Positions 14,944 to 37,862 of a stretch of DNA of 60,283 bases are shown one piece after another (position 1 is the first letter of the stretch; each line of letters starts with the position of its first letter). Where the stretch lies: positions 1 through 60,283 of IMG/VR virus record IMGVR_UViG_3300015360_000004; one strand, 5' to 3'. The translations under genes were made by a program, and so were the position numbers. Below the pieces are notes generated by a model. That model was not told where the DNA came from. It did no database searches and saw only the letters and a list, made by a program, of their open reading frames with translations. The stretch comes from a virus.

Positions 14944-15336
14944 TTAGCCGAGGAAACATCCAGGTTTCCCCTCACGGATGCTTATCCAACCCTCTGGACC
15001 GACCAGGATGTGGTCAAGGACCGGAATGCCAACCAGCTTGCCGACTTCGCAGATACGCTTTGTGGCCTGTAGGTCGGACTCGCTCGGCTCAAGGCTTCCG
15101 CTGGGGTGGTTGTGCGCGAGGATGATGGATACGGCGTTATTTCGAATCGCCCACTTAAACGTCTCCCGCGGGTGGACCATGGATTGGTTGACGAGACCGA
15201 CCGTCACGATGTGCAAGGAGGTAACCACGTTATTTCCGTCCAGGCAAATCACCACGAAGCATTCTTGCTCGGCGTTCTTGATATTCCCGAGCAGCGGGAC
15301 CACGTCTCCCGGCACTCGCACCTTGACCTTGTTCAT
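14944..15336 (-). CDS. radC: RadC-like JAB/MPN metalloprotein
   Basis: 130 residues from ATG 15336 (ATGA overlap; the frame is open to 15384). HPRETFKWAIRNN, AHNHPSGSLEPSESD and a C-terminal LDHILVGPEGWISIRE are diagnostic of RadC. The JAMM metal motif E...HxH-x(10)-D is intact. RadC proteins are common on mobile elements, and their reaction is unresolved. The N-terminal HhH domain of full-length RadC is absent, as in most phage versions. It lies two genes from the integrase. Confidence 0.9.
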   Translation of the reverse strand: MNKVKVRVPGDVVPLLGNIKNAEQECFVVICLDGNNVVTSLHIVTVGLVNQSMVHPRETFKWAIRNNAVSIILAHNHPSGSLEPSESDLQATKRICEVGKLVGIPVLDHILVGPEGWISIREGKPGCFLG

Positions 15337-15653
15337 AGCCATTCCGAATCCTCTATCACCCGACCGGAGAGGCACACGAAACACTTCTCCATCTTGACGC
15401 GGCGCATGGCCAAGACCGCTTTCACAAGATGCTCAGGCTCCACGTTATCGCGGATTAACTTATCCTTCACGAATCCACTGTGCCCGCAGTTCGCGATAAA
15501 ATAGACCATCGTCTTCAGACGCTCCTTGCACTCGTTGCAGGGCACGGGGTCCCAGGCCTGCTTGGGCGAAATCTCCTTCAGGCGCTTGTGGAGCAGGATT
15601 GCCCCCGACTCCTTGCCGCACATTCGACACAGGGCCATTGCTACGTAACTCAT
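15333..15653 (-). CDS. zinc-ribbon phage protein
   Basis: 106 residues. CRMCGKESGAILLHKRLKEI and DPVPCNECKERLK give two C-x2-C pairs, and KCFVCLSGRVI adds a third. A GGATAA-type strong ribosome site (AAGGAGG) precedes ATG 15653. The family, a zinc-binding protein starting xLCRMCGKES, is known from marine phages without assigned function. Confidence 0.7.
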   Translation of the reverse strand: MSYVAMALCRMCGKESGAILLHKRLKEISPKQAWDPVPCNECKERLKTMVYFIANCGHSGFVKDKLIRDNVEPEHLVKAVLAMRRVKMEKCFVCLSGRVIEDSEWL

Positions 15654-15695: not shown

Positions 15696-15719
15696 AAAAA
15701 GAAAGGGCCGCGTCAGCCC
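15696..15719 (-). terminator. intrinsic terminator after integrase
   Basis: Minus strand GGGCTGACGCGGCCC (6-bp stem with one G-T pair, 3-base loop) followed by TTTCTTTTT. The integrase stop codon (15713-15715) lies inside the hairpin. Confidence 0.7.
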
Positions 15720-16888
15720 CCCTTCTTACCCTCCATCATTTCGGCGGTCAGCCTCCAGTCCGAATAGTTGGTGGTGGTGACCGCGCTTCCTTCGGAGTGA
15801 CCTCCCCAAAGCTGGACTACGGGGGTGGGTATTCCTTTGCGAATCCAGTAGTCGAAGAAGGTCCGCCGCATGTCCTTGAAGGTTTTCGTCTTTTTTCCAG
15901 GAAGCAGTTTCTCAAACAAACGTTTACGGCGGTTGGAAATGGCGCTGCCCCAACTCTCGCGCTGGTGGTCCTTGTACTTATGCCCGGTGAACATACGGGA
16001 GTCAGGGGATGGAGCCTCTGCCTTCTTCTGGAGGAAGAGGTCGAGGAGGTGGGTCTTGTCGATTGGGACCTGGTAGAACTGGCCTGGCTCCTTGGCCCTT
16101 TCCTTGTTTACATACCACCGTTCGTCGTCCTTCAGGACCATGTGGGATGGGGCGAAGTCGAAGTAGTCTGCCGGGTCCATGGAGGACCAGCGGACGACAA
16201 GGGAAAGTTCGTAGAGCTCGGGGTCGCCTTTCTTCGCGTCCGCCATGAAAAGCTCCCATTCATCCAAAGCCCACATTTCCTTCCGCTTCCCGAACTTCTT
16301 CTTGTCCGGCCTGGGGAGGTCTGCCGCGTAATTTCGGCGGAGGGGGGTCCCGTCCTGTTTCGCCTCCCATTCCAGGAAGCGGTCCCAGTCGGTCAGGGTC
16401 TCTGACCAAGTCTTCGGGGCGTATGGCTCCCCGTCCTTTTTGAGCTTTATTCCGTCCAGGTCTGCGATTAGAGCGTCCAGGGATTCCGGAGTAATGTCCT
16501 CGACCAGGTTACGAGCCTCCCCTTTGCCCTTGTCCGAGCGGATGGAGGTTAGGTACCCCAGTTGGCGGGTCGTGGACCTTTTGTAGCTGACCGACATGAA
16601 GCGCATTTCCCTCCCTATGAAGGTAAGGATTTGCGCGGAAATCGTACGCCCCTTTTGTATCGGCTCGGGGACTATTTTGGCGGCTTCCTCGACCTTCACG
16701 AGGGTGGCCTTCCAATGCTCGGTCACGGCCTTATAGGCAATTTTCAGGGCGTCGTCCTTGGACTTTACCCCTGTCGGTTTCTTGAATTGACCCTCGCCGC
16801 GGATGGAGTAAAAGAACCAGAGGGTTGGGTCCTCGGGGCGGTCCTTTCGGCGTCTGACCTTTATCTTCGGGAATTTCGGTGGGCGCAT
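15713..16888 (-). CDS. int: tyrosine recombinase (integrase), first catalytic Arg apparently replaced
   Basis: 391 residues. Inserts and excises the phage at the attP next to its start. N-terminal AP2-like arm-binding region (about 12-60), SAM-like core-binding domain (80-180), catalytic domain (205-385). Catalytic positions seen: K338 in place of the box-II His (FKDMRRTF), R341, H364 (GGHSEG) and nucleophile Y375 (TTTNYSDW). Where box I normally has TGxR, this protein reads WSSMDPADYFDF, so Asp238 sits in the Arg position. That is unusual and may mean a dead or rewired enzyme. Promoter TTACTT-N16-TATAAT lies at 16910-16937. Confidence 0.85.
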   Translation of the reverse strand: MRPPKFPKIKVRRRKDRPEDPTLWFFYSIRGEGQFKKPTGVKSKDDALKIAYKAVTEHWKATLVKVEEAAKIVPEPIQKGRTISAQILTFIGREMRFMSVSYKRSTTRQLGYLTSIRSDKGKGEARNLVEDITPESLDALIADLDGIKLKKDGEPYAPKTWSETLTDWDRFLEWEAKQDGTPLRRNYAADLPRPDKKKFGKRKEMWALDEWELFMADAKKGDPELYELSLVVRWSSMDPADYFDFAPSHMVLKDDERWYVNKERAKEPGQFYQVPIDKTHLLDLFLQKKAEAPSPDSRMFTGHKYKDHQRESWGSAISNRRKRLFEKLLPGKKTKTFKDMRRTFFDYWIRKGIPTPVVQLWGGHSEGSAVTTTNYSDWRLTAEMMEGKKGG

Positions 16889-18009: not shown

Positions 18010-18039
18010 ATTATAGGCACGTCGAAAGAAACCGTTCAA
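18010..18039 (-). promoter_or_regulatory. promoter of the lipoprotein pair
   Basis: Minus strand TTGAAC (18034-18039), 18 bases, perfect TATAAT (18010-18015), ending 20 bases before ATG 17990. It overlaps the 3' end of vsr. Unlike the TGTACA promoters it looks like a standard housekeeping promoter. Confidence 0.7.
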
Positions 18040-18430
18040 TCTTCTTCGTTATCTTGTCGAAATTGGCGGTTTGGCACTCCCAAATGGCCAAAACCCTCCA
18101 CCCAAGCCTCTCAAGGGACACCTCGGCGTTGACATCCCTGGCTACGTTGTCGAAAAGCTTGGCCGACCAGAAGGCCTTGTTTGACTTCGGCATCGGGCTT
18201 TTTCCGCACCCATGCATGTGCCAGAAGCAGCCATGGACGAAGATGGCCTTCTTCCTGGAACGGAATACAAGGTCTGGCCGGCCTGGAAGGCCATTAACGC
18301 AGAGCCGGTACCCGGTAAATCCACAGGACCTCGCAGCCTTCCGTACCAGGAGCTCTGGCTTCGTGTCCCGGCCTCGGACTGAGGCCATGATTCGTGAGCG
18401 GACCTCGTGGCCGAATACATCCGGCATCAA
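18011..18430 (-). CDS. vsr: Vsr (very short patch repair) endonuclease
   Basis: Nicks DNA 5' of T:G mismatches that arise when 5-methylcytosine deaminates. 139 residues, full length. RIMASVRGRDTKPELLVRKA, RPDLVFRSRKKAIFVHGCFWHMHGC spread over 51-75: D53, H66 and H71 correspond to the catalytic Asp, His, His of E. coli Vsr (D51, H64, H69). The Cys residues that bind the structural zinc are present. No cytosine methyltransferase is in the window, so it is an orphan. It overlaps the next gene upstream by ATGA. Confidence 0.9.
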   Translation of the reverse strand: MMPDVFGHEVRSRIMASVRGRDTKPELLVRKAARSCGFTGYRLCVNGLPGRPDLVFRSRKKAIFVHGCFWHMHGCGKSPMPKSNKAFWSAKLFDNVARDVNAEVSLERLGWRVLAIWECQTANFDKITKKIERFLSTCL

Positions 18431-21158: not shown

Positions 21159-21489
21159 CCCCCCGCCTTCCCTCGAATTCCTGGAGGTGGTAGTGAATGG
21201 GCATACTGAGGGAGAGCGCCAGGTCACGCTCAAGCCGCGCTCCGTGTGACTTGGGCCAAAGCGGGAGCATGAGTACCTCGTCGCAGTCTAGCATCGCCTT
21301 CAGCGAATTCCGCATGTAGAAGGACCAGGGCTTATCCCTCGGCGCGTCCTTTCCGTCCGTGGACTCGGTGACCTCGTGCGGGCTGACGACGTTGAACCCA
21401 CGCGCGCGGAGGTAGTCGGTGGCCTTGCGGAACTCCGGGAAGTTGAAGTCCGGAATACCTGTCATCGGGCCGGCTATGTATATCTTCAT
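21151..21489 (-). CDS. DUF4406 protein, nucleoside 2-deoxyribosyltransferase-like
   Basis: 112 residues. MKIYIAGPMTGIPDFNFPEF, DYLRARGFNVVSPHEV, and DEVLMLPLWPKSHGARLERD are diagnostic. The family shares the fold of nucleoside 2-deoxyribosyltransferases, with the IAGPMTG phosphate/sugar loop and the acidic SxGARxE segment. The enzymatic activity of phage DUF4406 proteins is not established. It is co-translated with the RNA ligase gene upstream (ATGA). Confidence 0.85.
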   Translation of the reverse strand: MKIYIAGPMTGIPDFNFPEFRKATDYLRARGFNVVSPHEVTESTDGKDAPRDKPWSFYMRNSLKAMLDCDEVLMLPLWPKSHGARLERDLALSLSMPIHYHLQEFEGRRGDG

Positions 21490-22085
21490 AGCTCCTCCTG
21501 TGTAACGCCCTTGGGCGACTCGTCCTTCTCTAAGGTCTTTTTGAATAGCGTCCTAGCCGCGGAATGAAAGATGACTATGCCCTCCGGTTTCATGAATCCC
21601 GGGGCGGCTACGCTTCCACGTTCCGCCAGCGCCTTCAGCGTCCCATCTACGAACTGGGTCTCGAACGGCCCCCTGAAAAGTACTGGGACGACATTACAGC
21701 AGGCCGGCCTTGACTCCCCCCACTTCGCCGCGTTGAAAAGCGAGAATCTCTTCTCCGTCAGCCCGTACTTACGCTGGATGCCTTGTCCCCACCATTCACC
21801 GAAGTGCGCGCCTGGCCCGAGGTTCTTAAGGTCCTCGAAGTTGGCCAATGCCCATTTGGCGAAGCCGTAGTTATCGTCCGATGGAGTAATCCAGCGAGTA
21901 CGGCTACCGGCATACATCGCCCAGGTCGAGGCGTCAGGCCCGTACCAGTAGCCGAGCATCTTGTCATCGTGATAGCCCTTGGCGATTGGCACATTGCAAA
22001 TCCGGCCGTTGGTGCCGTCAATTTTCTCGGTTATTACCACCTCACGGCTCAGGCGCGCAATCTTCGTGAAATCCTTGAATATCAT
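21486..22085 (-). CDS. RNA ligase family protein
   Basis: About 199 residues from ATG 22085 (ATGA overlap; frame open to 22154). MIFKDFTKIARLSREVVITE, KIDGTNGRI holds the nucleotidyltransferase motif KxDGTN with lysine K21 as the AMP-accepting residue. HFGEWWGQGIQRKYG gives motif III/IIIa, and EGIVIFH motif IV. The C-terminal lysine-bearing segment (FKKTLEKDE) may serve as motif V. The protein resembles short Rnl2-type ligases that seal nicked RNA. No kinase-phosphatase partner is visible. Confidence 0.8.
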   Translation of the reverse strand: MIFKDFTKIARLSREVVITEKIDGTNGRICNVPIAKGYHDDKMLGYWYGPDASTWAMYAGSRTRWITPSDDNYGFAKWALANFEDLKNLGPGAHFGEWWGQGIQRKYGLTEKRFSLFNAAKWGESRPACCNVVPVLFRGPFETQFVDGTLKALAERGSVAAPGFMKPEGIVIFHSAARTLFKKTLEKDESPKGVTQEEL

Positions 22086-22399
22086 TTGACCACCGGCTTT
22101 ATTCCAAGCTCTTCCGCCCGCTCCTCCAGGGAACGCCCCTTCGGTCTTTTCCATTGGGGCTTGGGGTTATGGGCCTTTGCCCAGTTCGCCGCGTCCGCGC
22201 TGTCCTTCGCGATGACTTCAGGCGCCAGCTCTTCCATCGTCTTGATGGTCCTGTTGAACTCGGCCACGAGCTGGTCGCACCTGTCCATAAATCCGTAGAC
22301 GATGGAACCAGACCAATCCACAACGAGAAGCGTGGTTACCGCCCAGAGGATGTTGGTCAAAAGCCTTATGCGGGTCGCGGGTTGTAGTTTGTTATTCAT
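22082..22399 (-). CDS. single-TM hypothetical protein
   Basis: 105 residues. Residues 12-35 (RLLTNILWAVTTLLVVDW and GSIVYGFM) form one membrane segment. The remaining ~65 residues are soluble and helical (QLVAEFNRTIKTMEELAPEV), ending in a basic tail. N-in anchor with a coiled-coil-like body resembles an inner-membrane spanin, but it is far from the endolysin. Function unknown. Confidence 0.6.
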   Translation of the reverse strand: MNNKLQPATRIRLLTNILWAVTTLLVVDWSGSIVYGFMDRCDQLVAEFNRTIKTMEELAPEVIAKDSADAANWAKAHNPKPQWKRPKGRSLEERAEELGIKPVVK

Positions 22400-30310: not shown

Positions 30311-30838
30311 CTAGCCCTTCACTTTATAGAGGTCCATGCCCTTGAACAGATACTCGACACCTTCCAGAAGGGTCGATTCAGGCATGTGGCCGAACTCCAC
30401 CGACTTGGGGTACTCCGCGCTCAGGAAGTCGAAGTAGATGGCTATGTCAAACCGGTGAATCACATAGTGGAGGATGACCATGCGCCAGCCTTCATTCTCT
30501 TTTGCCGGGGTGATATCCAACCTGGCGCCCTTAACGTCTATGTCGCAGTTGTACCCCTTCTTGCCCGCCCACGCTTTTACGGCCTTTATCCATGGCGCGG
30601 ACCTGCCTCCGGCCGGCTCGTCACCGTCGAGCTCGATATCCTTGTTTGGCTTGCGTGGCTTTCTGGCCTTCTTGCTCGTTGCAGCATCCTCATCAACCGC
30701 CTCCTCGTCGTCATCCAGGACCTCTTCGTCCGATTCCGCGGCCATCTGCTTTTGGATTGCGGCGAGCTTCTTTTTCTTCTCTTCCATGGATTCTACCGGA
30801 GCGACTGCCTTCCTGACGATTTTGACTACCTGGGTCAT
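30311..30838 (-). CDS. hypothetical protein with acidic/basic linker, between primase and polymerase
   Basis: 175 residues from ATG 30838 (ATGA overlap with polymerase stop). The first ~80 residues are charged and disordered (ESDEEVLDDDEEAVDEDAAT, then a Lys/Arg run). The C-terminal ~90 form a folded domain: WIKAVKAWAGKKGYNCDIDV, RLDITPAKENEGWRMVILHY, KSVEFGHMPESTLLEG. The domain reads like a VRR- or PDDEXK-related fold (D-IDVKG-RLDI), but catalytic residues are not certain. Replication accessory role inferred from position. Confidence 0.6.
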   Translation of the reverse strand: MTQVVKIVRKAVAPVESMEEKKKKLAAIQKQMAAESDEEVLDDDEEAVDEDAATSKKARKPRKPNKDIELDGDEPAGGRSAPWIKAVKAWAGKKGYNCDIDVKGARLDITPAKENEGWRMVILHYVIHRFDIAIYFDFLSAEYPKSVEFGHMPESTLLEGVEYLFKGMDLYKVKG

Positions 30839-32820
30839 AGCTCTAGCTTCACTTTCTGAGCCCAACTGGTCTCTGTTACTGATGGTTCAATTATGAAGGG
30901 ACTCGGCATTCCGAAGTACGTGTGTAGGTTTCCCTGCATCGCCTTTGTAATGTCCCGACCGAGCCGCTTTGAATGGTGCTTAAGCGGAATCTCCATGCCG
31001 AGTTCATCGTGTACGGTCAGCAGGGTGCGGCACCCGGGATACTTAGTGCGAAATACATTGGCGACGTTATTCATTGCCCGCTTGATGACCCCCGCAGCAG
31101 GGCCCTGAGTATCGTAGTTCAACGCCTTGTAGGCGAACCGGGGGTCAATCACGTACACACGGCCGAAATTATCCTTAATCCAACCCTGCATCTGGATTTG
31201 GGTCATCAATTTACGGTTGTAGTCAAACACCCCGCGGTACGTACGCCAGTACCCGTCGTACAGCTGTTTGGCTTCTGAGTAATCGATGAGGAGCTGCTCG
31301 GCTATGGCCGACGGCCCGCCTCCGTACGGCATGGTGAAATTAACGGTCTTCGCCTTCTTGCGATAATTGTCGAAGGCTTTCTTGTCGCCGAAATCCGCTT
31401 CGGTACCGAATAGGCTTGTTGCCAGGTAGGAGTGCATGTCCCTACCGCCAAGCAGATTTTCCACCATTACTGGGTCCTTCGAATTGAAAGCCAGAATCCA
31501 AATCTCTATCTGTGAATAGTCGAAGAAATAGAGGACATGGTCTTTCCTGGGGACAAAGCACTCACGGATTCGGTAATCGACCGTACCCTTGCGCTTGATT
31601 GAGGTGGCTGAGCTGATATTCATCAGATTGGGCTCAGAACAGGACAAGCGACCGGTGACGGTACCACAGGTCCGGAAATTGGGATGTAGGACGAAGTCCT
31701 CTCCTTCCCAGACGCCTAGGCGCTTGAACGGCGCGATGAACGAGCCGAGCTGGTGCTCTGCGCCGCTCAGGTTCACCAGAACCTTGGCCAGCTCATTCCC
31801 ATTCTTTGCCCACTTGGCAAGGGTAGTGCCGTCCGTGGTCAGGGTCTCCTCCCGGATTCCGTCTTTCCGCTTACGCCGCTTGTACTCCGGCCGCAACCCG
31901 AATTGGCCCTTGCCCTTGCCGTAAAAGGTGGCCTTCATCTGGATGGGGGAACCGGGATTCAGGTTGCCGTAACCCAGGTCTGCTTTCGCCTTTTCGGAGC
32001 TGTCAATTATGCCCTGGTAGTACTGCTCCAGCTCCAGAACCTTCTCGAAATCCAGCTTTATGCCGGTGAGCTGCATTTCCCTGGTAACGGATAGGAGCTC
32101 GTTTTCCATCTCCAGGATGGGCCGATAGCTGTCATACTGAGACCCGTCCTCCGGAACCTCTTCGTAGAAGTCCTCGTAGCCAGTATACAGGGCCATGGTC
32201 CTGTCCGTGTCACCCAGGGCGTAGGTCTCGCACTTTTCCGCGTCACCAAGCCAGTAGTCGGCCTCGGGGTCACCCAGCGGATTGAACCACTGCCTTGTCT
32301 TTGACTTGCTGTCGGCCGAAATGGCGTAGGAAACCTTTCTGGCTGCTCGTCTGGCGGTCTCGACTGTCTTCAGCAGGTCCTTCTGGTCCTCTTCGCTCCA
32401 GTTGAATAATTCCTTGCACAGGGGCTTCAAACCGAACGCAAAGCGGTTCGGGTTATGTACGTGCGACATGACGAGGGTGTCAAAGACTGGGCCAACCACC
32501 TTGATGCCAATCTTAAGCAACATGGTCACGTCGAAGTTCGCGTTATGGAAAACCTTGACGATGTTCGGGGTGGATTCGAAGAAATGCTTCAATGCCAAGT
32601 ACCCCGGCATGTTCCTGCGGTAGAGGACCTCCCTGGTGTAGGGGTTGACCTCGAACCGGATGTAGGCGTTCTCACCATCATACGAAGTGAAGGAAAAGGC
32701 GAATGGCCTCGCCGGATGGTATCCAAGGCGAACAATCGAGCCGTAAACATGCAATCCGGTTGTTTCCGTATCTGCCGCGACAGCCTTGCTTTTGTACAGT
32801 TTATCCAGCATTTGTCCCAT
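30835..32820 (-). CDS. family A DNA polymerase with 3'-5' exonuclease
   Basis: 661 residues, no 5'-3' exonuclease domain. Exonuclease I: D17-T-E19; II: FHNANFD (N95, D97); III: ALGDTD (D204, D206). Polymerase motif A DYSQIE (D434), motif B with R487 and KTVNFTMPYG, motif C HDE (604-606). In motif B the usual NFG is NFT. It replicates the phage genome, probably with the TOPRIM protein downstream. Position in the nucleotide-metabolism operon fits. Confidence 0.95.
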   Translation of the reverse strand: MGQMLDKLYKSKAVAADTETTGLHVYGSIVRLGYHPARPFAFSFTSYDGENAYIRFEVNPYTREVLYRRNMPGYLALKHFFESTPNIVKVFHNANFDVTMLLKIGIKVVGPVFDTLVMSHVHNPNRFAFGLKPLCKELFNWSEEDQKDLLKTVETARRAARKVSYAISADSKSKTRQWFNPLGDPEADYWLGDAEKCETYALGDTDRTMALYTGYEDFYEEVPEDGSQYDSYRPILEMENELLSVTREMQLTGIKLDFEKVLELEQYYQGIIDSSEKAKADLGYGNLNPGSPIQMKATFYGKGKGQFGLRPEYKRRKRKDGIREETLTTDGTTLAKWAKNGNELAKVLVNLSGAEHQLGSFIAPFKRLGVWEGEDFVLHPNFRTCGTVTGRLSCSEPNLMNISSATSIKRKGTVDYRIRECFVPRKDHVLYFFDYSQIEIWILAFNSKDPVMVENLLGGRDMHSYLATSLFGTEADFGDKKAFDNYRKKAKTVNFTMPYGGGPSAIAEQLLIDYSEAKQLYDGYWRTYRGVFDYNRKLMTQIQMQGWIKDNFGRVYVIDPRFAYKALNYDTQGPAAGVIKRAMNNVANVFRTKYPGCRTLLTVHDELGMEIPLKHHSKRLGRDITKAMQGNLHTYFGMPSPFIIEPSVTETSWAQKVKLEL

Positions 32821-33664: not shown

Positions 33665-34552
33665 CTACTTCCCTCCAAGTTTGGTGATTGTTCTACCCAT
33701 CGTCTTCGTCTCCGTCCCCTTCGTTTCATCCTTCTGCGGCAAGGGGGTCTTGTTGTTGAAAGCCGCCATGAAGTTCGTGTACGCCTCCTTGCTGGTCTTC
33801 CCCATCTCGATATCTGAGATGGCGGTACCGTCCGGATAGCGGAAATGGTTCGCGAAACGATTACCCGCCTCGACGTGCATGTCCGGGATGATTCGCATTT
33901 TGCGCTTGTTCTGCGGGTCGATGTATATGTACCCGGTAAGGTCGCAGAACTTGGCCAGCACCTTGTGGCCTGTCGCCATGATGGTCGGCCTCATCATCGA
34001 GTAGGAGCTTCCGTCTGCCCGCTCTATCTCCCGTTCCGCCGCGTGGGAAAGGAAGATGGTCCCGTAATGGCGTGATAGCCGGTAGATGGCGCTGCGGAAC
34101 TCCTCCTTGATGGCGTTCCAGCCCTTGCCGAAATCGTTCTGAGGGGGGTAACTCCAGCCCTGATTCTTACCGACGTGCTCTAGGCACTGGTCCAGACACA
34201 AATCCACCACGTCGAAGGCGACGTTTTTGAAACGCTCACGACCCGCCTTCTTTTCCTGGATGAGGAGGTCGATATAGCCGAGTGTCTCTACCCAGGAATC
34301 CGGTTGACGTGCCTTGAGCCTGTAGTCCTTTCCGGACGGCTCATAGAACAGGTGGAACGTATCCTCGAACTCCATGGAGAGCGAGGTCTTACCGCACTTC
34401 TCTGCCCCGTAAAGGTAGAGCGCGTACCCTTCCGGGGTCGTCGGCGGAATGGTGAACTCATGCTCTCCTGGAAGGGAGAGACTGCTCGCCCTTACCGCTT
34501 TCGGCGCAGCGGCCGCTCCTAGCGGGCTTCCCGTCATCTTCACTTTGTTCAT
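33665..34552 (-). CDS. phage RecA-like nucleotide-binding protein (AAA_24)
   Basis: 295 residues from ATG 34552 behind AAGGAG (frame open to 34693, but that extension lies in the upstream gene). YALYLYGAEKCGKTSLSMEF holds Walker A (GAEKCGKTS). KNVAFDVVDLC (Walker B, D-x2-D) and TIFLSHAAEREIE (sensor/motif 1a) follow. This family is the phage single-strand annealing/RecA-fold ATPase called Sak4-like in some phages. It is placed beside DUF669 and a RecB-like nuclease, as usual. ATGA overlap with the deaminase gene. Confidence 0.82.
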   Translation of the reverse strand: MNKVKMTGSPLGAAAAPKAVRASSLSLPGEHEFTIPPTTPEGYALYLYGAEKCGKTSLSMEFEDTFHLFYEPSGKDYRLKARQPDSWVETLGYIDLLIQEKKAGRERFKNVAFDVVDLCLDQCLEHVGKNQGWSYPPQNDFGKGWNAIKEEFRSAIYRLSRHYGTIFLSHAAEREIERADGSSYSMMRPTIMATGHKVLAKFCDLTGYIYIDPQNKRKMRIIPDMHVEAGNRFANHFRYPDGTAISDIEMGKTSKEAYTNFMAAFNNKTPLPQKDETKGTETKTMGRTITKLGGK

Positions 34553-34950
34553 TCCTTCTCCTTCGTGAGTTTGTAGGTGAGAACGCCCTCTTTTTCGAAC
34601 ATGAGCGCTGGCTTTTCCATCTTGTCGTGGTCGTGGCGGTAATAAATAAGGGAGATTCCCGAGTTGATGAGCAGGGTCGCGCACCTGGCGCACGGGTAAA
34701 CGGTGACGAAGAGAACCTTCATCGGGTCATCAACGCAGCACTTGGCGAGAGCGTTCTCCTCAGCGTGCGCGCAACCGCAGGCCGAGCCATCAAGCTGGCA
34801 TGACCAATCCTGACCCCGCGGTCCACCGTTGTACCCCATCGAATAGATACGCGTGAAGCTGCCATCGGTCAGGATTGCCCCGACCCGCTTCGTCTCGCAC
34901 TCAACTCTTTCCGCCAGTGAATCGGCGAAGGACATGAGGATTATTTCCAT
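34549..34950 (-). CDS. dCMP (deoxycytidylate) deaminase
   Basis: 133 residues. Converts dCMP to dUMP. Zinc and catalytic residues: H62-A-E64-EN (CAHAEENAL), and PCARC (C87, C90). The N-terminal ADSLAERVECETKRVGAILT, GYNGGPRG is typical of dCMP deaminases. A second Cys-rich patch ACGCAHAEE is common in the phage form. It lies next to two nucleotide pyrophosphohydrolases and, two genes further, a TS-family enzyme. ATG 34935 is an alternative start. Confidence 0.88.
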   Translation of the reverse strand: MEIILMSFADSLAERVECETKRVGAILTDGSFTRIYSMGYNGGPRGQDWSCQLDGSACGCAHAEENALAKCCVDDPMKVLFVTVYPCARCATLLINSGISLIYYRHDHDKMEKPALMFEKEGVLTYKLTKEKE

Positions 34951-34963
34951 CCTCGGTTTCGGC

Positions 34964-35437
34964 TTAGTAGCCAGAGGCCTGCCGCTCCCTTACGACTTTG
35001 TTCTTTAGCTGGAATATTTCTAGAATTTCTTCCGGTTTCATGAAGTAGGACACGTAGTTCCAGTAGGACATGAACGCATGCCTGAGAAGGCATTGAAACA
35101 CCACCTCGTTGGTCTTCGAGAGGGTTTTCTTCCATGGCTTATTCTTCAGTTCATGGCTAGCGCCAGCAAGCTGCTCCACGAAATCACGCCACCTACTGCG
35201 CGGAACCACTTCAAAGGTCCACGGCTTGATGCCACAGAGTATTAGCAACTCAAGCGTAAAGTGGAGCCCGTCGACCAGCTCGACCTTGTGCTCGTCCTCA
35301 TGGCCAGAATTGTCCTCAGCCACCGCCTCGAAAAGTTCCTCGACCGCAAACCACATCATGCTCCTTAAAACGGCCTGATGCTCAGGGTCGTCGATATCCA
35401 GTGGCCATTGAGGAATGACTCCTAAAAATCCGAGCAT
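34964..35437 (-). CDS. dUTPase/dCTPase-family (all-alpha) pyrophosphohydrolase
   Basis: 157 residues from ATG 35437, behind AGGAGGAAACG (GTG 35488 is an in-frame alternative). Hydrolyses dUTP, and in some relatives dCTP, to the monophosphate. AVEELFEAVAED and ELVDGLHFTLELLI carry the EE..E and D/E metal-binding residues of the dimeric dUTPase family; the length agrees. T4-like dCTPase-dUTPases belong to this superfamily. The substrate cannot be read from sequence. Dense cluster with the deaminase. Confidence 0.75.
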   Translation of the reverse strand: MLGFLGVIPQWPLDIDDPEHQAVLRSMMWFAVEELFEAVAEDNSGHEDEHKVELVDGLHFTLELLILCGIKPWTFEVVPRSRWRDFVEQLAGASHELKNKPWKKTLSKTNEVVFQCLLRHAFMSYWNYVSYFMKPEEILEIFQLKNKVVRERQASGY

Positions 35438-35484
35438 CGTTTCCTCCTGAAGTAGGTAGACGCGCTCAAAGCAGGTGGGTCCGG

Positions 35485-35880
35485 TCACTTGGCCTGCTCC
35501 TGGCAGGTTATGACCGTGCGGTCATCGAAACCGGGCTCGGGCTGCCGGTAAACCGGGGGCGGGTAGGTAAATGCCCCGTCCGCGGGACGGTCGTCCTTGT
35601 CCCGACGCAAGCGTATGTGGTGGGCGAGTGCGAGGCAGTTGAACGCCGCGTGGATGGCGTGCGGAAGCCCAGTCTCCGGGTCGTTCTCCTCCTTACGCCA
35701 GAACGCCCAGAGGTGACGCATCGCCGCGCCAAACAGGCGGCTCCAGGCCAGCCCTTGCTCCCAGTTCCGGTCGGAGTACTTCTTGCTTCCGAGGGTATAG
35801 ACCTGCGCGAGCAGCTCAAGCTCCTCGGCTGGTATGAGGTCGTACCTGGTTTTTCCCTCGTCGTGCTTGATGCCGCTCAT
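35485..35880 (-). CDS. DUF5664 (dATP/dGTP-type) phosphohydrolase-like protein
   Basis: 131 residues. KHDEGKTRYDLIPAEELELL, YTLGSKKYSDRNWEQGLAWS, RHLWAFWRKEENDPETGLPH and HAAFNCLALAHH are the signature of this phage family, annotated as dATP/dGTP diphosphohydrolase in phage collections. The HD-type pattern H-x-W...E(N)DPETG-x-PH-x5-N suggests metal binding. It is part of the nucleotide module; activity is not proven. ATGA overlap upstream. Confidence 0.75.
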   Translation of the reverse strand: MSGIKHDEGKTRYDLIPAEELELLAQVYTLGSKKYSDRNWEQGLAWSRLFGAAMRHLWAFWRKEENDPETGLPHAIHAAFNCLALAHHIRLRRDKDDRPADGAFTYPPPVYRQPEPGFDDRTVITCQEQAK

Positions 35881-36926
35881 GCCTCCTCCTCCTCGGCGAT
35901 GGTCTTGTACTTGTCATGGGTATCCGGCCGAATCTCCAGGCCGGTCAGGTTCTTGCGCCTGCTGTTGCAGTAATCCATATAGACGCAGGGCTTATTGAAG
36001 TTGAAACAGGCGTCCGTGTTCTCCAGGTCGTCCTTATGGCCCCTATCCCACCATTTCTTGTAGGCATCCAACTCCAACTTCAGCCGACGCTCGAATTCAA
36101 CCAGGTCCTTCTCCAAGCATGGAACCTCGTAGCGGACGAAGTAAAAGTCGGGGCGGGACATGACGTCCGCCTTAACCCTGGCGCAATAGGCCGCGATGGT
36201 CTCATTCGTTCCCAGACGAAGCTGCGGCCGGCGAATGACGTCCTTGAGGACGCCCTCCGGCACCTCGCCGCGGTCTCTCCAGGTCACCAGCTCATAGAGC
36301 AGGACCTGGAACTCCCTTGCCGTGGTGGCGGCGATGTACTCCTCGTTCCACCGGTCCTTAGTCTTTGTCTCGTCAAGCCAAAGCCGGCCGGTCTTGGTAA
36401 GGCGGTAGATTCCGTCGCACTTGAACCGGATGGGTATGCCGCTTTCCGCCTCGACGTACTTGCCCTGCCGCTCCAGCTCGACCCACTGCTTCTTCTCCTC
36501 GCTGAAGTCCTTCGCCCAGAACCTGAAATAGAAGGGCAGCATTATTGACGCGACCCCGTACGCCAGCTCCATCTCTTTCCGTGAATACTCGTCCAGGCCG
36601 AGGTACTCATCATTGAAATGCCGCTGGAATTCGGCGGGTAGTTTCTCGCATAGGGTCAATGCCTGCTCCAGCGTCTTTACCGTGCCGTCCAATTGGCCGC
36701 GGCGGATAAACTCCAGACCGTAGTGGAATACTCCACCCTGCGCCTGGGCCTTGGAGCGGTTGGTATTCCGAACATAGCCGCGGGCGTACATGCGAGCCTT
36801 GACCTCGCACTCCTTCTTCATCTTCAAAAGCGACTGGGTAACGCCCTGCACCTTCGGGTCATAGTTGAGTTCAACCGCCTGGCGCTTGAATTTTATCGGA
36901 ATAACCACTCGCTTCTTTTCAACCAT
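35877..36926 (-). CDS. RecB-like PD-(D/E)XK nuclease
   Basis: 349 residues. FKCDGIYRLTKTGRLWLDET, KTKDRWNEE carries the D...D-E-x-K nuclease core (LDETKTK). EFQVLLYELVTWRDRG is the QxxxY-like helix. C-terminal CFNFNKPCVYMDYC gives three Cys that may hold an iron-sulphur cluster as in AddB/RecB-type nucleases. It would process DNA ends for recombination with the RecA-like ATPase. First gene after the 94-base intergenic region. Confidence 0.82.
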   Translation of the reverse strand: MVEKKRVVIPIKFKRQAVELNYDPKVQGVTQSLLKMKKECEVKARMYARGYVRNTNRSKAQAQGGVFHYGLEFIRRGQLDGTVKTLEQALTLCEKLPAEFQRHFNDEYLGLDEYSRKEMELAYGVASIMLPFYFRFWAKDFSEEKKQWVELERQGKYVEAESGIPIRFKCDGIYRLTKTGRLWLDETKTKDRWNEEYIAATTAREFQVLLYELVTWRDRGEVPEGVLKDVIRRPQLRLGTNETIAAYCARVKADVMSRPDFYFVRYEVPCLEKDLVEFERRLKLELDAYKKWWDRGHKDDLENTDACFNFNKPCVYMDYCNSRRKNLTGLEIRPDTHDKYKTIAEEEEA

Positions 36927-37019: not shown

Positions 37020-37862
37020 TCATACGGCGATGTCGAACTTGATTCCGGAATACGGGTCGTAACCTATAAGTGACACATCCTTATGAGTCCAATCATAGAT
37101 GCCGCCCTTCCATTCCATGTGCAGCTTCGGATGGGTTCTTGGTGGGCGCATCAATTGAATTTTTGCGTTGTCGACATGGTTTTCGTAGATGTGCGCATCC
37201 CAGAATACCGCAGTCAATTCTCCTGGAATCATACCAGTCTCATGACAAATCAACTCCAGAAGCATGCCGTAGAAAATGATATCGGCCGGAACCCCAATCA
37301 TGATGTCCGCGCTCCGCTGCGCCCAGTTCAAATTGATAACGCCGTTGCAGTGGGTGATATTCCACATGAGATGGCAAGGCGGGAGGGCCATCAGGTGCTC
37401 CTCGGTCGGATTCCAGGCGGAGACTACCATGCGGCGGTCGTCCGGGTTCTTCCGAAGCGTCTGGAGCACCCGCTCCACTTGGTCGAAGCCAATGCCGCCC
37501 CACGGCTGTTGAGGGTACAGGCGGCCCCAATTACGCCACTGCCAGCCGTATATAGGACCGAGGTCTGGGCATTCCGCCGGCGTTTGTCCATTCAGCTTGG
37601 CAGTGACTGGGTTGGCCCAGTGGTCCCAGAAACGGCAACCGCGCTGCTGGTACCAGCCCTTGTCCGTAATTCCATGCAGGAACCCCTCAAGCTCGACGGC
37701 GTTGTTCTTGATTCCCAGCTTCCTGGTGGTGGGGATGGGAAAGCCTTCGGCCATGTCGTGTCTGAAATGGAGTGAATTGACCATAAGGGTATTGCCTGCC
37801 CTCGTCGGCTTAGCCTTGCCGCGGGTAAGCGCGGTCTCGACCAAATCCAGGTATTCCCTCAC
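37020..37862 (-). CDS. thymidylate-synthase-family enzyme with Asp in the pyrimidine-selecting position (dCMP methylase/hydroxymethylase candidate)
   Basis: 280 residues, GTG start overlapping the upstream stop (GTGA). All catalytic marks of ThyA are present: FWDHWANP, GPIYGWQWR, C163 in PPCH, Q182-RS-AD, H224 and Y226 (DAHIYENH). The C-terminus is FDIAV. At the position of E. coli Asn177 (GLPFN) this protein has Asp194 (GVPAD; codon at 37281-37283). Asn there selects dUMP; Asp is found in dCMP hydroxymethylases such as T4 gp42. The folate-binding parts are otherwise TS-like. Substrate dCMP is therefore likely, product 5-methyl- or 5-hydroxymethyl-dCMP. An ordinary dUMP-using TS is the fallback. 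Confidence 0.9.
   Translation of the reverse strand: MREYLDLVETALTRGKAKPTRAGNTLMVNSLHFRHDMAEGFPIPTTRKLGIKNNAVELEGFLHGITDKGWYQQRGCRFWDHWANPVTAKLNGQTPAECPDLGPIYGWQWRNWGRLYPQQPWGGIGFDQVERVLQTLRKNPDDRRMVVSAWNPTEEHLMALPPCHLMWNITHCNGVINLNWAQRSADIMIGVPADIIFYGMLLELICHETGMIPGELTAVFWDAHIYENHVDNAKIQLMRPPRTHPKLHMEWKGGIYDWTHKDVSLIGYDPYSGIKFDIAV

Follow-up and report, generated by a model that had tools for sequence, protein, structure and literature searches.

Replacement of the pyrimidine-selecting Asn of thymidylate synthase (TS) by Asp, as in the N177D mutant of E. coli ThyA and the N229D mutant of L. casei TS, switches the substrate to dCMP and yields 5-methyl-dCMP, according to the summary of that work in PMC8670742. 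The MetaGPA results given in the same section of the paper find Asp177 enriched in contigs with modified cytosine, and position 147 likewise differs between modified and unmodified contigs. Hydroxymethylation of the T4 type has a signature of its own, made up of Asp at Cys-3, the position three residues ahead of the catalytic Cys, where TS has Leu, Ser93 where TS has Val, Val replacing Trp83, and no C-terminal tail (PMC6400193). The DNA of Xp12 contains 5-methylcytosine (5mC) in place of all cytosine. The Vsr endonuclease repairs T:G mismatches arising from deaminated 5mC, as described in passages of PMC6116569 and PMC12907096, and in the Burkholderia phages KL3 and AH2 it is accompanied by a C5-methyltransferase (PMC3483164).

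We analysed a virus record of 60,283 bases in its entirety (IMGVR_UViG_3300015360_000004), here called the window. Its TS-fold gene is an intact open reading frame on the minus strand, which the first-pass annotation did not specify, and the product, judged from its sequence, is probably a dCMP 5-methyltransferase and not an ordinary dUMP synthase. The protein matches the Pfam Thymidylat_synt profile (PF00303) over its full length (E=1.3e-74) and carries Cys163, the QRS motif (residues 182-184), DAHIYENH and the C-terminal IKFDIAV, bearing out the first-pass annotation, which had reported the catalytic Cys and the other ThyA marks to be intact. Along with this Cys, the Arg phosphate ligands, Glu58, Trp80, Tyr94, Asp169, His207 and Tyr209 are kept, as in members of the TS superfamily. 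The AlphaFold2 model (mean pLDDT 95.6) has its best PDB matches among ThyA-type enzymes, including the Asn229 and Asn177 mutants (Foldseek E about 1e-34, target-normalised TM mostly ≥0.9).

The Asn177 of a dUMP-specific TS is replaced in the window enzyme by Asp194. When E. coli ThyA, T4 gp42, the DLP4 enzyme and the window enzyme are aligned together, the column is unambiguous, pairing Asp194 with E. coli Asn177, gp42 Asp179 and the DLP4 Asp, in agreement with the earlier placement of this residue at the ThyA Asn site. All 79 of the nearest cellular relatives have Asn here (Asp 0/79), and the 75 viral matches from the same search divide into 56 with Asn, 14 with Asp and 5 with an apparent Ser in a shortened loop. 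Of the positions whose conservation in the Asn177 relatives is 93% or more, the window enzyme departs at two, Asp194 and a conservative Leu-to-Ile exchange. On the clear alignment, the AlphaFold2 model and the conservation of Asn in relatives, an alignment artefact or drift was rejected as the source of Asp194. In the viral TS homologues L354, L367, L371, L385 and L386 the specificity loop is cut from CGFPQN to CNQS and Asn177 is gone with it.

That Asp shifts a TS towards dCMP, as the first-pass annotation held, is well grounded in the published N177D and N229D mutants and in the Asp177 enrichment, as both are presented in the relevant section of PMC8670742. The annotation had left the product as 5-methyl- or 5-hydroxymethyl-dCMP, and the first of these is now favoured, because the hydroxymethylation signatures are all missing and the hydride-transfer features of TS are kept. 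Read by the criteria of PMC6400193, the window enzyme has Leu at Cys-3, Ile at 93, Trp at 83 and a complete tail, GIKFDIAV. It thus shares with T4-type hydroxymethylases the Asp at the specificity position, and has neither their Asp or Glu at Cys-3, nor Ser or Thr at 93, nor the missing tail. Asp177 is combined with an intact hydride-transfer site and a C-terminal seal, the combination predicted for a dCMP methylase, and His147 is retained. In terms of these residues, the window enzyme is a natural counterpart of the N177D and N229D laboratory enzymes.

Codon-pattern scans of IMG/VR for QRSxDxxxG[LV]PxD returned 87 stretches in which the serine is TCN and no fewer than 119 in which it is AGY, so Asp177 TSs are common in phages. 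Given this abundance, and the link of Asp177 to modified cytosine drawn in the MetaGPA section of PMC8670742, the residue by itself is not new. A large group of short viral Asp177 homologues (L114, L140, L153, L164 and similar) has Lys126, Asn127 and Leu147, and this Lys126 recalls Lys133 of the CMP hydroxymethylase MilA.

We built a careful tree of 49 enzymes from which columns 176-177 had been taken out. The window enzyme clusters with two Asn177 enzymes, L336 and L337 (support 99/91), and its branch of 1.19 is about four times longer than theirs (0.28 and 0.26), which would fit a change of function. The tree has six Asp/Asn changes, at least four of them forced by starred branches, and a wider FastTree tree has 12 and 7; the direction of these changes is not polarised, and long branches weaken exact placement. 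Since viral Asn177 enzymes surround the window enzyme in the tree, the Asn-to-Asp switch appears to have arisen on its own lineage. Membership of the Xp12/Bosavirus TS subfamily was rejected on this grouping and on an identity of 27-30%. Searches with the TS and with its motif found no close relatives of the window phage, and a PolA search found one distant relative, L590 (PolA 29%).

Table 1. Features of the window discussed in the text, by position.
Feature	Position	Strand	Remarks
RadC-like JAB-domain protein	14944..15384	(-)	
Tyrosine-recombinase-like integrase	15713..16888	(-)	E=5.7e-12
Vsr DNA mismatch endonuclease, complete	18014..18424	(-)	PF03852 E=3e-24; E. coli Vsr 1cw0 E=1.5e-23
RNA ligase-domain protein	21486..22154	(-)	
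Family A DNA polymerase with 3'-5' exonuclease	30835..32820	(-)	candidate to incorporate the nucleotide
dCMP deaminase	34549..34950	(-)	zinc motif HAEE..PCARC intact
All-alpha nucleotide pyrophosphohydrolase, dUTPase_2/MazG type	34964..35488	(-)	candidate dUTPase or dCTPase; no PDB sequence relative found
dATP/dGTP diphosphohydrolase N-terminal domain protein	35485..35880	(-)	PF18909 E=1e-31
Protein between the nucleotide genes and TS	35877..36926	(-)	no Pfam/PHROG match; Cas4-like by eye only (Cys-rich C-terminus)
TS-fold enzyme, predicted dCMP 5-methyltransferase, 280 aa	37020..37862	(-)	GTG start; read from 37862 down to 37020
Asp194 codon GAT	37281..37283	(-)	E. coli Asn177, T4 gp42 Asp179
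Catalytic Cys163 codon	37374..37376	(-)	within ALPPCH, which has Leu at Cys-3; equivalent of His147 retained

Genes of nucleotide metabolism and replication lie around the TS (Table 1). The deaminase gene lies about 2 kb from the TS gene, and the substrate of its product could be dCMP or 5-methyl-dCMP. Further downstream on the same strand are genes for a Sak4-like annealing protein, an SSB-like protein and a Toprim-domain protein, and upstream of the TS are an SbcD-like exonuclease, a RuvC-like resolvase and a helicase. The same replication block is found in L590, where a gene related by tblastn to the one between the nucleotide genes and the TS is present, and where the TS, the deaminase and the pyrophosphohydrolases have no match. 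Among the genes of the window we recognised no nucleotide kinase, no DHFR, no base-modifying enzyme and no second TS. Elsewhere in the window, the integrase-like gene suggests a temperate history, and RNA ligase-domain and RadC-like proteins are encoded. A survey of dCMP deaminases found them in 24 of 50 Asp177 phages and 14 of 50 Asn177 phages (p=0.06). As the deaminase is no rarer with Asp177, it is not an argument against dCMP use, and being non-discriminating it was dropped as evidence of dUMP use.

The window Vsr has the catalytic motifs SRIM..RDTKPE, LPGRPD, FVHGCFWH.H.C and GWRVL..WEC. No C5-DNA-methyltransferase (PF00145) was found in the 60,283-base record, which may be incomplete, so that such a gene could be missing from it. 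PF00145 is present in 47 of 50 Vsr-bearing viral contigs tested (the exceptions are G112, G134 and G037) and, among these, in 46 of the 48 that have no TS. In G037 (L586 8107-9937) Vsr adjoins an Asp177 TS and a DHFR-like stretch, and PF00145 is absent, a related case for the proposed pairing of Vsr with nucleotide-level synthesis. The Tyr94 equivalent of this TS aligns as Thr. The other TS among the 50 Vsr contigs, in G108, also has Asp, and G157 is an additional Asp177 phage with Vsr; PF00145 is present in both. Vsr without a methyltransferase is seen in 2 of 4 carriers of an Asp177 TS versus 2 of 48 carriers without a TS (a post hoc Fisher test on small numbers, p=0.026).

The frequency of stand-alone Vsr, 2/100 with Asp177 and 0/100 with Asn177, does not differ significantly (p=0.5) and was dropped as evidence. 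We kept the post hoc argument from Vsr without a methyltransferase, which rests on few cases because Vsr is rare overall. Depletion of CTAG as a Vsr footprint was also set aside as not diagnostic, since the window has 0.62 of the expected number but DLP4, with its Vsr status unchecked, has about 0.46. Beside the TS module of AXL1 and Xp12 lies an ENDO3c-domain protein (AXL1 gp65, L009 8327-8809) that could be the equivalent of Vsr in the form of a T:G glycosylase; its authors report that the catalytic motifs are missing.

The window contains no GATC (197 expected) and no CTCGAG (18.5 expected), and this complete absence indicates that the genome was probably under past restriction pressure. 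GATC is also absent from L339 and L362, in about 17 kb each, and is not avoided in DLP4, a likely 5mC phage. The avoidance of GATC is neutral with respect to cytosine, because what MboI- and DpnI-type enzymes sense is methylation of adenine. Cleavage of the XhoI type is blocked by 5mC, which makes the avoidance of CTCGAG awkward for a fully 5mC genome, and this avoidance may be older than the Asn-to-Asp switch. Modified cytosine in the virion DNA is plausible; Vsr without a C5-methyltransferase supports it, but CTCGAG is still avoided, and the nearby deaminase could divert the product to dTMP. We put the chance that the phage DNA carries 5mC at about even.

We propose that an ordinary viral TS became a dCMP methylase through the change of its pyrimidine-selecting Asn to Asp. 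Cys163 would attack C6 of dCMP while Asp194 held and protonated the N3 edge of cytosine, with the carbon coming from methylene-tetrahydrofolate. Hydride transfer in the closed, tail-sealed active site would then give 5-methyl-dCMP and dihydrofolate, the former to be phosphorylated and incorporated in the phage DNA as 5-methylcytosine, and the phage Vsr would nick the T:G mismatches that follow from deamination of that base. More tentatively, the phage may replace its cytosine with 5mC at the nucleotide level by means of this one-change TS, its own Vsr policing T:G mismatches, so that Vsr would be paired with nucleotide-level synthesis and not with a DNA methyltransferase.

The Asp at the specificity position is also that of gp42, and a dCMP hydroxymethylase of this type would lead to 5-hydroxymethylcytosine DNA. 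Such an enzyme is highly improbable, since Asp at Cys-3, Ser93 and Val83 are missing, the C-terminal tail is there, identity to gp42 is 22-24%, and the window has no recognised gene for a sugar transferase or any other modifier of hydroxymethyl groups; we rejected it on the signature residues. It is also unlikely that the enzyme is a TS still working on dUMP, or on both nucleotides, with Asp as tolerated drift in a classical dTMP cassette completed by dCMP deaminase and dUTPase. The deaminase and dUTPase-like genes directly downstream are what such a cassette would contain, the remaining TS residues are all intact, the nearest relatives are Asn177 enzymes, and the fold matches are dUMP-binding TSs. 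However, Asn177 in 79/79 cellular and most viral relatives implies that drift to Asp is not commonly tolerated, and at least four to six Asn/Asp changes on phage branches are as expected under selection. The published Asn-to-Asp mutants favour dCMP (summary in PMC8670742), and this reading leaves Vsr unaccounted for.

Methylation could also be followed by deamination, with the nearby phage deaminase converting 5-methyl-dCMP to dTMP in a dUMP-free route to thymidylate that would put little or no 5mC in the DNA. About 2 kb separates the TS gene from the deaminase gene, phages with an Asp177 TS carry a deaminase no less often than Asn177 phages, and studies of Xp12 listed in PMC11946847 (Wang and Ehrlich 1982 among them) reportedly concern, by their titles, a new biosynthesis of thymidylate and a deaminase of 5-methyl-dCTP. 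This route would leave little work for Vsr, and we consider it distinctly unlikely; the avoidance of CTCGAG and GATC does not discriminate it from the other readings.

The window adds to the known picture of Asp177 enzymes a clean methylase signature, a separate origin in the tree, and Vsr without a methyltransferase. If this reading is true, one natural Asn-to-Asp change has repeatedly turned phage ThyA-type TSs into cytosine methylases, echoing the laboratory work of 1992. It would also provide a readable test, in which Asp177 with a hydrophobic residue at Cys-3 and a C-terminal tail marks predicted 5mC phages, and Asp at Cys-3 marks 5hmC phages. Genomes with 5mC would then have a second marker in a Vsr gene unaccompanied by a DNA methyltransferase.

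Comparison with the known systems indicates how this locus is placed among them. As in KL3 and AH2 (PMC3483164), a phage Vsr would repair deaminated 5mC; there the base comes from a DNA methyltransferase, whereas in the window, where none was found, the candidate source is a nucleotide-level enzyme. The TS homologues of modified contigs in MetaGPA, as far as they are described in that section of PMC8670742, also have Asp177, a phage origin, and deaminase and pyrophosphohydrolase genes near; relative to that description, the window keeps His147, has Vsr, and has no carbamoyltransferase found in it. The window enzyme shares with T4 gp42 the TS fold, an Asp selecting cytosine and a Cys nucleophile, but lacks all hydroxymethylation signature residues and has the closing tail. 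Xp12 was compared through the enzymes of DLP4 and AXL1 (Bosavirus), which stand in for its own. Asp at 177 and a nearby dCMP deaminase and pyrophosphohydrolase are common to these phages and the window, but the DLP4 and AXL1 enzymes are 27-30% identical to the window enzyme, have Pro147, Asn at Cys-3, Phe83 and another C-terminus, and adjoin a DHFR gene of which none was found in the window, consistent with a separate origin. With E. coli ThyA N177D and L. casei TS N229D the window enzyme shares a TS scaffold with all catalytic residues kept and the specificity Asn alone changed to Asp. Unlike those mutants, it carries the change naturally, in a phage and in a viral TS lineage whose identity to ThyA is 34-38%.
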